Notes under the pieces: generated by a model | Databases searched by the model: none | The model's input: only the letters and a program-made list of their open reading frames with translations | What the model was told of the DNA's origin: nothing | Translations under genes and position numbers: made by a program | From: Hyphomonadaceae bacterium | Lineage (GTDB): Bacteria; Pseudomonadota; Alphaproteobacteria; Caulobacterales; Hyphomonadaceae | DNA: 35,087 nucleotides | Direction of reading: 5' to 3' | Assembly (NCBI GenBank): GCA_027482995.1 | Contig: JAIXVM010000172.1 | Span: 1 to 35,087, forward strand | Shown here: positions 1-14,840 of the stretch, piece after piece | How the letters are laid out: every line of letters begins with the position of its first letter | Numbering within the stretch: the stretch's first letter is position 1

Positions 1-1771
1 CGAGCGTGTCGCCGCGCGTGACGGCGGCGCCGGGGGTAGCCAGTACACTCAGCACCTTGCCGGGCATCGGGGCCTTCACGACATCCCCGCCAAGGGCTGC
101 GTCGGCATCCGCTGTGTATTCAGGTACGGTGACGAGGAACGTGTCGCCGCCTGTGGTGACGGCGTAGCGGCGCGGCGTGAGATCGGTGACAAGCGGGAAC
201 GGTGTATCGTCCGTTTGCGGCGCATCAGCTTCGATGAGTTGGGCAGCAGCATCGGCCGCCAGCAGGACCGTGCGGCGGGGCGCGGCGTTGAGGCGGAAGC
301 CGTCGTGCAGGTCCCAAGGTGAGACGGCGCCCTCGTCATCCAGCAGGAGCGTTGCCACGGCCGAGAGCGAGGCGGCGCGGTGGGCATCTGGCACTGCGGC
401 GAGCGCGTCGAGGTTTTCGCCGATCCAGTTGACGTGGTGCGTTCCGCTCGTGAATTCGTCCGACAGGGCGCAGCGGCGCAGGAAACCCGCATTTGAAGGC
501 ACACCGGCGAGTTGGGTATGGGCGAGCGTATCTGTCAGGCGCTCAAGTGCGGCGTCACGGGTTTCACCGTGCACGATCAGTTTGGCGATCATCGAGTCGT
601 AGTTCGAGGGCACGCGGTCACCGGACTCGAAGCCGGCGTCCCAGCGGAGCGACTCGCCGTCCGGCTCTTCGAGGAGGCCGAATTCGAGGATGAGACCGGC
701 GCCGGGGCGGAAGCCTTCGGCCGGATCTTCAGCGCAGATTCGGGCCTCGAAGGCGTGGCCGGTGAGCTTGATGTCTTTCTGCTTCAGCGGGAGTTTTCCG
801 CCGGAGGCGACGGTGAGCTGCCATTCGACAAGATCCGTGCCGGTGATGGCTTCCGTGACAGGGTGCTCGACCTGAAGACGGGTGTTCATTTCGAGGAACC
901 AGAACGTGTCCAGCGCGAGCGGCTTTGATCCGTCCACGATAAATTCGACGGTGCCGGCGCCCTGATAACCCACGGCCTTCGCAAGTTTCACGGCGGCGTC
1001 GGTCATGGCCTTGCGAACGGCTTCGGGCATGCCGGGGGCTGGCGCTTCCTCAATGACTTTCTGGCGGCGGCGCTGGAGGGAGCAGTCGCGTTCGAACAGG
1101 TGGACGACATTGCCATGCTGATCGCCGAAGACCTGCACTTCGATGTGGCGGGGACGCTCGACGAGTTTTTCGAGCATGACGCGGCCATCACCGAAGCTGG
1201 ATTCTGCTTCGCGCACGGCGCTGGTAAGTTCGGATTCGAGGTCTGCGGCGCGTGAGACCTGACGGATGCCCCTGCCCCCGCCGCCGGCGACAGCCTTGAT
1301 CAGGAGCGGGTAGCCGACGGTCTCGGCGGCTTTGGTCAGTGTGCTGATGTCCTGCGCTTCACCGCGGTAACCCGGCAAGACCGGAACGCCGGCGTCCTCC
1401 GCGATACGCTTGGCTTCGTCCTTCGGGCCCATGGAGCGGATGGCGGCAGGCGGCGGGCCGACCCAGGCGAGCCCGGCGGCGATGACGGCTTCGGCGAAGC
1501 CAGCGTTCTCGGACAGGAAGCCGTAGCCGGGGTGGATGGCGTTGGCGCCGGTCTGGGCGGCGGCAGCGAGGATTGCGTCGATGCGCAGGTAGCTTTCGGC
1601 GGCGGGGGCGGCGCCGATATGGACGGCTTCATCGGCCTCGCGCACGTGCATCGCGGCGCGGTCCGCGTCCGAATAGACGGCGACGGTGGCGATGCCGAGA
1701 CGGCGGCAGGTGCGGAAGATCCGGACGGCGATCTCACCCCGGTTCGCGACGAGGAGTTTAGTGATTTTCAC
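1..1771 (-). CDS. mccA: Methylcrotonyl-CoA carboxylase biotin-containing (alpha) subunit, partial: C-terminus cut by the window start inside the biotinyl domain
   Basis: Minus-strand frame from GTG 1771 reads VKITKLLVANRGEIAVRIFRTCRRLG..., has AGGGGRGIR and LEMNTRLQVEHPVTEAITGTDLV, and reaches the biotinyl-domain start VKAPMPGKVLSV at the window edge. Absent from the ORF track because the frame runs off the window. Pairs with mccB at 6223-7830. Confidence 0.9.
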   Translation of the reverse strand, partial: MKITKLLVANRGEIAVRIFRTCRRLGIATVAVYSDADRAAMHVREADEAVHIGAAPAAESYLRIDAILAAAAQTGANAIHPGYGFLSENAGFAEAVIAAGLAWVGPPPAAIRSMGPKDEAKRIAEDAGVPVLPGYRGEAQDISTLTKAAETVGYPLLIKAVAGGGGRGIRQVSRAADLESELTSAVREAESSFGDGRVMLEKLVERPRHIEVQVFGDQHGNVVHLFERDCSLQRRRQKVIEEAPAPGMPEAVRKAMTDAAVKLAKAVGYQGAGTVEFIVDGSKPLALDTFWFLEMNTRLQVEHPVTEAITGTDLVEWQLTVASGGKLPLKQKDIKLTGHAFEARICAEDPAEGFRPGAGLILEFGLLEEPDGESLRWDAGFESGDRVPSNYDSMIAKLIVHGETRDAALERLTDTLAHTQLAGVPSNAGFLRRCALSDEFTSGTHHVNWIGENLDALAAVPDAHRAASLSAVATLLLDDEGAVSPWDLHDGFRLNAAPRRTVLLAADAAAQLIEADAPQTDDTPFPLVTDLTPRRYAVTTGGDTFLVTVPEYTADADAALGGDVVKAPMPGKVLSVLATPGAAVTRGDTL

Positions 1772-2638
1772 TGTTTTGCCTCCCGGCGCCCGGTGCACGG
1801 TGGCGACCAGGACGAAACTGATGATCACCAGCAGATACCATGATCCGAGCTTGGAGAAAGAGACCATCTCCCAGCCGTCTTCCTGGCCCGGATAGGACCA
1901 GGCGCGGGCGAAGGTGGCGAGGTTTTCGGCAAACCAGATGAAGAGGGCCACCAGGAAGAAGCCGACGAGCAGCGGCATGGGCCGGTGGACTTCGTCCGGG
2001 CGGAACCAGACGACGGTGCGCAGGTAGATCAGCGCGGTGGCGGCGAAGAGGCCGAGGCGGATGTCGACCGTCCAATGGTGGGCGAAGAAGTTCACATAGA
2101 CGGCGGCGGCGAGCAGGCCCTGCAGCCAAAGGGGCGGGAAGCGGTCGAACCGGAACTCGAAGATGCGCCAGACGCGGGCGAGATATGAGCCGACGGCGGC
2201 GTACATGAAGCCCGAGAAGAGCGGGACGGCACCGATGCGCAGGAAGCTGTCTTCGGGGTAGATCCAGCTGCCGGCCTGCGTCTTGAACAGCTCCATGATG
2301 GTGCCGACGATGTGGAAGACGAAGATGACGCGCGCCTCCTCCCAGGTTTCGAGACCGGAGAGGATCAGCAGGCCCTGGAGGGACAGCGCAGCGATGACCA
2401 GAAAGTCGTAGCGCGAAAGCGGCGCGTCGTCGGGGTAGAACAGGTGCGTCATCAGGAGGAGCGAAAGCATCGCGCCGCCGAAGATGCAGGCCCAGGCCTG
2501 CTTGATGCCGAAGCTGAAGAACTCGAACAGGCCGAGCGACCAGGGGCCCTTTACCCAGCGGGCGCGAAAGGCTTCCCGATCGGCGTGAAGACGGTCGCGG
2601 ATGCGCGTGGCGGCGGAGGGCGATTGGGTCATCGCCAT
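1772..2638 (-). CDS. DUF817-family integral membrane protein, in frame with and continuous into mccA (no stop codon between them)
   Basis: ATG 2638 reads MAMTQSPSAATRIRDRLHADREAFRARWVKGPWSLGLFEFFSFGIKQAWACIFGGAMLSLLLMTHLF... to ...KLGSWYLLVIISFVLVATVHRAPGGKT-VKITKLLVANRGEI. Read codon by codon from 2638 to 1771: no in-frame stop. Confidence 0.8.
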
Positions 2639-2764
2639 TCGGGATGACGGGGTTTCCGGGCTGAAACAAGGCCGGGAGCGGCCGGGACCGGTATGATTTT
2701 GAGGCTATGTCAGGCCCGGCGGATGGCGTAAGCATAGGCTTCGGCCAAGCAACGGGGGACTCCG

Positions 2765-3133
2765 ATGGCTTACAATTCAGGCGTGCAGCTCAGCGGCCTT
2801 GCCGGCATCATCGGTGCGGGCGTCGGCGGTTATCTCGGTTATAATCAGGCGGCAGAGATCGGCATGGACCCCGTGCAGGGCGCGTTGATCCTTGGCGGGA
2901 TCGGGCTTGTGGTGGCCAGTCTTGGGTCGTTCGTGCTCAAATCGGCGATGCAGTTTGTCATCTACCTCATCCTGTTCGGCGTGCTGGCCTACTTCTTCCG
3001 CGACCAGATCGAGGCGTTGACAGGGATCGATCCGGTCTCGGCGGTGTACAACACGCTCGAGAGCTGGGGCTTGCCTGTGGGCTCGATCCCGGGCGCCGAA
3101 GACGTCGCGAACCGGACCCCGGCAGAGCAGTAG
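2765..3133 (+). CDS. Small Gly-rich membrane protein of unknown function
   Basis: 122-aa ORF with Gly-rich hydrophobic segments (LAGIIGAGVGGYLGY, GALILGGIGLVVASLGSFVL, FVIYLILFGVLAYFF); no recognised domain. Confidence 0.7.
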   Translation: MAYNSGVQLSGLAGIIGAGVGGYLGYNQAAEIGMDPVQGALILGGIGLVVASLGSFVLKSAMQFVIYLILFGVLAYFFRDQIEALTGIDPVSAVYNTLESWGLPVGSIPGAEDVANRTPAEQ

Positions 3134-3136
3134 GCC

Positions 3137-3937
3137 TTACGCTTTCCAGCTGGGCGCGCGCTTTTCGAGGAAGGCGGCGATGCCTTCCTTGCCTTCATCA
3201 GAGGCCCGTCGCGCGGCGATGCGCTTGGCGGTCTTGTGGCCGAGGTCGCGGTCGATTTCCCGTCCGGCAAAGTCGTGCACAAGTTTCTTGGAATCGGCGA
3301 CTGCCCCCGGTGCGGCAGCGAACACAAGCTTGGCGATATGTTCTTCGAGTTCGGCCATTTCATCCGCCGTCTGAGCGACATAATGCACGAGCCCCATGCG
3401 TTCGGCGTAGGCAGCGTCAAATGACTCCGCCGTGACGAACAGCGCGCGGGCCCAGCGGGGACCGATGGCGTTGATCACGAACGGGCTGATCGTGGCAGGC
3501 GTCAGGCCGAGGCGGACTTCGGAGAAGCGGAAGCTGGTATTCGCCATGGCAATGGCAACGTCGCACGCCGCAACGAGCCCTGCCCCGCCGCCCATCGCCG
3601 TGCCGTGCACAAGCGCGAGGGTCATCTGGGGCATTTCGTTGAGCCTCTGGAGCATCTCGGCGAGGCGCACGGCATCGGCCTCATTGTCTTCGCGCGATTG
3701 GGTGGAGGCGTGCTTCATCCAGGTCAGGTCAGCGCCGGCGGAGAAGGACGGGCCCTCGCCGCGCAGGATCATCATGCGGATCGAGGTCTGGTCGGCGATC
3801 ATCTCGAACACGTCGGTGAGTTCGGCGATGAGTTCGGCGTTGAAGGCGTTGTGAACGTCCGGCCGGTTCAGTGTGACGACGGCGACGCCATCACGCGTCG
3901 CATCGAACTTGATGAGGTCATATTCGGAATCGCGCAT
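3137..3937 (-). CDS. Enoyl-CoA hydratase/isomerase family protein, probably methylglutaconyl-CoA hydratase from context
   Basis: Crotonase fold motifs VVTLNRPDVHNAFNAELIAEL, GEGPSFSAGADLTWMK, GTAMGGGAGLVAACDVAIA; lies between MCC subunit genes. Confidence 0.88.
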   Translation of the reverse strand: MRDSEYDLIKFDATRDGVAVVTLNRPDVHNAFNAELIAELTDVFEMIADQTSIRMMILRGEGPSFSAGADLTWMKHASTQSREDNEADAVRLAEMLQRLNEMPQMTLALVHGTAMGGGAGLVAACDVAIAMANTSFRFSEVRLGLTPATISPFVINAIGPRWARALFVTAESFDAAYAERMGLVHYVAQTADEMAELEEHIAKLVFAAAPGAVADSKKLVHDFAGREIDRDLGHKTAKRIAARRASDEGKEGIAAFLEKRAPSWKA

Positions 3938-6222: not shown

Positions 6223-7830
<1,608 letters not shown>

Positions 7831-13610: not shown

Positions 13611-14840
13611 TCAGTCGTGACGCGTCAACGCGCGGTAGAGATAGTAGCTGGAGATCAGGAACAGAAAGCCGCCGCCGAGCGCGAGGACCGGGCCGGCATA
13701 GATGTCGCTCTGCTGAAGCACCGGCTGGCCGGCCCGCGCGAAGTAGCGCTGGCCGCCGGCGATCAGGCCGACGAGGCCGAGGCCGGACAGCAGCGCGTAG
13801 GGCCCCCAAACGCTGAGCTTGCCGAGGGAAGCCGTGTCGATGTCACCGTTTTCCTGGATCGCGCGTTCGAGATCGCGTTCGTTGATCTGGACGACCTCGA
13901 GGTCGTCCACCACGACCGCTTCGGCGGGCGGAAGGAAGGGCAAGGCGTCGTCCGGCAGTGTCGGGTTTGGCGCGCGGGCATTGCGGCGGCGTTCGATGCC
14001 CTCTGGCGGACCTTTTGGACGCGGTGACAGCGTGCCACCGGGATCGTCCCCGACGAGCGCCTTGACTGCGTCCGTGATTTCTTCCGGCGTGGGGCCGTCG
14101 CCCGGACCAAGCGGCGGCGTGGGCGGCGCAGGCGGCTGCGGCGGGGCCTCGCCCAGAATTCGGGCGATACGTTCGCTGACGGCGCGGGCGGCAGCCTGTG
14201 TGGCGTTGGCGGGCGCGGTGGGCGTGGGAACTTCTGTGCCGGATGAGGTGCGCGACCCGATCACGACCGAACGGGCGGCGGGCTCGGCGTCCTCGTCATC
14301 CAGCCCCTGCCGGGCCAGCGGGCGAACCCAGGCGCCGGGAACGGCGGCGCGGCCAGCAGGATGTTCCAGAAAGTGTGCCAGTTCGGCTGCGCGCCGGCGG
14401 GCAATGGCATCTACGACGCGAAGCTCTCCGGACACATTCGCGAGGCGCCAGGCCCACATGGCATCGGCGGCGCCGGCCCGGTCACCGGCGTTCAGGGCGG
14501 CAATCACACCGCTCGAAATGAAGGCTTCGGCACCGATGTTGAAGGCGAAAGAGACCAGCGCATCGAACTCGTTCTGGTTCAGCGGGCTCAGCACGCGTTC
14601 GACGATCAGCTGCTCAATGGGCGGCAAGTCATGGTGAATCAGGATCAGCGCGGCGTCACGGGGCGTGATCTGAAGGCCGGCGCGGGCGGTCGAGGTATGG
14701 CCATAGCCAATCAGCCAACCACCACCCGGCAGACGCGCTGCACGGGGGCGGAAGCCCTCGAAACTCCGGATGAGCTCGAGACCTTGTGCTGATGTCCTCA
14801 TGGAACGGGCCAAAACGCCTGTTCTCCCGTTGTGATACAT
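13611..14840 (-). CDS. GH24 (T4-lysozyme-like) family protein with C-terminal membrane anchor; catalytic triad appears degenerate
   Basis: GLELIRSFEGFRPRAARLPGGGWLIGYGHT, Pro-rich linker, then two hydrophobic segments (WGPYALLSGLGLVGLIAGG, AGPVLALGGGFLFLISSYYLY). Start may be the internal Met at 14801. Confidence 0.8.
   Translation of the reverse strand: MYHNGRTGVLARSMRTSAQGLELIRSFEGFRPRAARLPGGGWLIGYGHTSTARAGLQITPRDAALILIHHDLPPIEQLIVERVLSPLNQNEFDALVSFAFNIGAEAFISSGVIAALNAGDRAGAADAMWAWRLANVSGELRVVDAIARRRAAELAHFLEHPAGRAAVPGAWVRPLARQGLDDEDAEPAARSVVIGSRTSSGTEVPTPTAPANATQAAARAVSERIARILGEAPPQPPAPPTPPLGPGDGPTPEEITDAVKALVGDDPGGTLSPRPKGPPEGIERRRNARAPNPTLPDDALPFLPPAEAVVVDDLEVVQINERDLERAIQENGDIDTASLGKLSVWGPYALLSGLGLVGLIAGGQRYFARAGQPVLQQSDIYAGPVLALGGGFLFLISSYYLYRALTRHD

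Follow-up and report, generated by a model that had tools for sequence, protein, structure and literature searches.

The window analysed here, a stretch of 35,087 nucleotides, is the entire contig C272 of the draft genome of a Hyphomonadaceae bacterium (G000; 335 contigs, 84.6% complete). On its minus strand, a gene for a DUF817 membrane protein lies immediately upstream of an mccA-like gene, within a cluster of genes for acyl-CoA metabolism. The relevant features are as follows.

1781..2638, minus strand: DUF817 membrane protein gene, with a complete domain (PF05675 at 1814-2524) and about 8 hydrophobic segments
1772..1783, minus strand: junction spacer, with GGAGG at 1783-1779, then 7 nt, then the GTG of mccA
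2..1771, minus strand: mccA-like gene for the biotin-carboxylase subunit of an acyl-CoA carboxylase, with its own GTG start at 1771
1734..1736, minus strand: TGA within the NRGEI codons of mccA, out of frame in the window
2765-3133, plus strand: small gene of 122 aa, between the hydratase gene and DUF817
3137..3937, minus strand: enoyl-CoA hydratase/isomerase family gene, member of the same conserved cluster
6223..7830, minus strand: gene for a carboxyltransferase (mccB-like) subunit, with 94-97% identity in relatives

From the ATG at 2638, the minus-strand frame 2638..2 reads through 879 codons without a single stop and continues past the contig end (about 900 open codons from stop to stop), thereby confirming the claim of the earlier note that an unterminated frame leads from this ATG into mccA. 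Pfam matches along the frame comprise DUF817 (residues 39-275), Biotin_carb_N (292-400), CPSase_L_D2 (406-617) and Biotin_carb_C (631-740). The DUF817-like domain with multiple transmembrane segments, which had been proposed to precede mccA, is present at full length: PF05675 scored 352 bits (cut-off 25.9), and model positions 1-237 of 237 were covered. The domain thus resembles other DUF817 proteins in being complete and multi-pass, but DUF817 is normally encoded by a gene of its own, whereas in the window it is joined to mccA. In a published study, DUF817 is named only as a protein that differs between Acinetobacter strains.

The downstream part of the frame resembles acyl-CoA carboxylase alpha subunits of the MccA/LiuD type, as Biotin_carb_N, ATP-grasp and Biotin_carb_C were all detected by Pfam and carboxyltransferase and enoyl-CoA hydratase genes are clustered with it. 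It differs from them in carrying DUF817 at its N-terminus and in losing its C-terminus at the contig end. Since the window is the whole of contig C272, the biotinyl C-terminus of mccA is missing here, the contig ending before the AMKM motif; the biotinyl domain is complete, with EAMKMEH, in the close relative G038. The gene order in close relatives is carboxyltransferase, acyltransferase, enoyl-CoA hydratase, a small opposite-strand gene, DUF817 and mccA, the acyltransferase gene not being found in all of them. For methylcrotonyl-CoA as a putative substrate the indication is the genomic context, with carboxyltransferase, enoyl-CoA hydratase and acyl-CoA dehydrogenase genes near the mccA of the window; the NCBIfam matches listed were below their cut-offs. 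The cluster is predicted to be of the leucine-degradation type. The small 122-aa gene has no Pfam match, and its position was kept in 9/9 relatives compared. Elsewhere in the window (13611-14840, minus strand), next to an acyl-CoA dehydrogenase gene, lies a gene for a protein of 409 aa whose N-terminus holds a phage-lysozyme domain.

The earlier note had called for a comparison of the DUF817/mccA junction in related genomes. We compared 27 genus-mates in which DUF817 directly adjoins mccA, taking the spacer as the distance from the residue aligned to DUF817 position 286 up to the mccA start. One of these junctions, Hyphomonas-like, lies in a record named 'uncultured Acidobacteria bacterium' (L044), which is probably a mislabelled bin and apparently G036, and was counted as such. 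The spacer was 10 nt in 16 of the 27 genomes, 22 nt in eight, 34 nt in two and 11 nt in one (G037). The closest abutting relatives have 10 nt and the window 9 nt, with the alignment gap placed near 1779; mccA of the window is therefore in phase 0 with DUF817. The phase of mccA relative to DUF817 was +1 in 26 of the 27 genus-mates and +2 in G037. Same-strand overlap out of phase was thus found in all 27 relatives, where the genes are separate, but not in the window.

In the relatives with phase +1, the DUF817 stop falls 26-56 nt inside mccA. In most of the closest abutting relatives DUF817 ends 35 nt into mccA, at a TGA lying within the conserved NRGEI codons, and the TGA at 1734..1736 of the window is that same site. 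The separate form predicted in the earlier note, a TGA overlapping GTGA, does occur, in that DUF817 and mccA of G037 share a four-base GTGA overlap, but DUF817 usually stops at 26-56 nt within mccA instead. Of the 27 abutting relatives, 26 have a GGAG motif ahead of the mccA start, and the distance from GGAGG to GTG is 7 nt in the window versus 8 nt in the closest of them.

The reason the frame stays open also lies in the phase. A stop closes the mccA frame 11-26 codons upstream of the mccA start in 26 of the 27 abutting relatives. The frame is open far upstream only in the window (311 codons) and in G037 (336 codons); the open codons are in-frame DUF817 in the former and a GC-rich shadow frame across DUF817 in the latter. 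As the mccA frame is closed upstream in the usual phase, a single base decides between a short frame and a very long one. In G037 (L173, 8364-11247, minus strand), automatic gene calling could place the mccA start too far upstream, through the 336 codons of the shadow frame.

Adjacency of the two genes is not tightly kept, since DUF817 and mccA lie further apart in the remaining genomes of the genus that were measured, and in G034, which has the most similar DUF817 (94%), a peptidase M24 gene separates them. The start of this peptidase gene (L178, 9739-10482, plus strand) apparently overlaps the DUF817 stop in a TTGA.

We searched for further instances of the joined frame. DUF817 was found in 42/42 genomes of the Hyphomonas-like genus, just as pieces in two fragmented ones. 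In none of the 41 other genomes did the DUF817 frame come near 900 aa, the longest being 415 aa, and no DUF817-carboxylase fusion was present among the matches listed from the family, order and phylum samples, where the longest DUF817 frames listed were 648 and 562 aa. The search for DUF817 and Biotin_carb_N in one polypeptide, suggested by the earlier note, thus gave no second case among the matches listed. Eight long DUF817 frames from elsewhere (446-648 aa) were inspected; seven of them are lengthened mainly on the upstream side of DUF817, and 5-27 codons follow the domain. The remaining one, from another genome of this class (L232 of G673, 1798-3423, minus strand), runs into a DUF2809 domain (47 bits). 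It may be a genuine fusion of two membrane domains, both of unknown function, found in one genome, and is the one case seen elsewhere of DUF817 with such a tail.

Taken together, these data indicate, with a probability of about 85%, that DUF817 and mccA are ordinary genes, separate but with overlapping ends, which a one-base-shorter spacer has brought into one frame in a single assembly. The competing explanation given in the earlier note, a one-base indel near the DUF817 C-terminus, is the one that fits best, the window being one base short where relatives have two overlapping genes. The shorter spacer places both genes in one frame, and MccA would most likely still be made as a normal soluble subunit, with translation starting from its own GGAGG and the GTG at 1771. 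Separate MccA is expected as in the relatives, because mccA keeps GGAGG 7 nt before this GTG. If the genome really lacks the base, ribosomes at the end of DUF817 would read on and some DUF817-MccA fusion of about 920 aa would be made beside normal MccA, presumably without a selected role.

Two versions of this reading, a natural deletion and an error, have to be weighed. The first, to which we give roughly even odds, is a private one-base deletion, with read-through fusion and separate MccA both made and the fusion not under selection. Such a deletion is plausible because the spacer follows a complete DUF817 domain and tolerates changes in length, as the values of 10, 11, 22 and 34 nt among relatives illustrate; retention of GGAGG and GTG at a workable spacing is in keeping with it. 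Against it, the phase is +1 in 26 of the 27 and the length changes are multiples of 3, which hints that in-frame joining is avoided, although shared descent of the abutting genomes weakens this hint.

The quality of the assembly bears on both versions. We set open reading frames found in about 790 kb of relatives against about 340 kb of G000; the comparison covered about 74 kb, in which no coding frameshift was confirmed. Six candidate frameshifts were rejected as over-extended or shadow frames on the basis of Pfam matches, the layout of open frames and GC by codon position. Raw DNA gap counts were too noisy to serve as an error rate because many gaps were compensated or intergenic. The assembly is not indel-ridden in general; general assembly error is therefore not the explanation, and the missing base may be a natural deletion.

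In the second version, the missing base is a local sequencing or assembly error, and the two genes of the actual genome overlap out of frame as usual and encode two proteins. We hold this to be a serious possibility, though at less than even odds. The draft is fragmented and incomplete, the junction lies 1.8 kb from the contig end, and the 9-nt state occurs in one of 42 genus genomes. However, the compared part of the assembly is clean, the difference sits at GGC-CA, outside any long homopolymer, and the spacer of G037 likewise differs by one base. Between the two, natural deletion is somewhat more likely than error.

The earlier note had raised the prospect that the frame tethers a normally soluble carboxylase subunit to the membrane. 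A selected fusion, in which methylcrotonyl-CoA carboxylase is docked at the inner membrane, is structurally conceivable, as every visible domain is intact and DUF817, with about 8 hydrophobic segments (by hydropathy) and basic ends, looks N-in/C-in, which would probably leave the fused enzyme on the cytosolic side. An established fusion would be shared by more than one genome of its lineage and would have lost the downstream start or ribosome-binding site. Instead, it was seen in 0 of 41 genus-mates and in none of the wider matches listed, GGAGG and GTG are kept (1783-1769), and adjacency of the genes is labile. We therefore find a functional tether improbable and membrane tethering unsupported; that the species has fixed a DUF817-anchored inner-membrane alpha subunit, beside or replacing the soluble one, is equally doubtful. 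Programmed ribosomal frameshifting that joins DUF817 and mccA genus-wide, hard-wired in the window, is very improbable indeed, for although an A-rich stretch precedes the start in some genomes (seven A in G027), the usual phase would require a +1 shift, which is the wrong direction, the A-run is missing from most relatives, and no slippery motif is conserved.

The pair in the relatives is like the same-strand overlapping genes described by Sabath et al. 2008 (PMC2542354), which overlap out of frame on one strand; the window differs in its phase of zero, which has turned the overlap into a continuous frame. It also recalls the reading-frame transitions detected by GeneTack (Antonov et al. 2013, PMC3711429), where a small change decides whether neighbours are read as one, but here the joined state is found in one genome only and no recoding motif is conserved. 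The joined frame is thus probably due to a private indel or to faulty assembly rather than an established membrane-tethered enzyme. Where genomes are GC-rich, a difference of one base at the junction of overlapping genes can mimic a convincing protein of membrane anchor and enzyme in one assembly, and fusions seen in a single genome should be compared with relatives before a function is inferred. If the deletion is real, the locus would be a fresh natural fusion, the tolerance of which could be measured.
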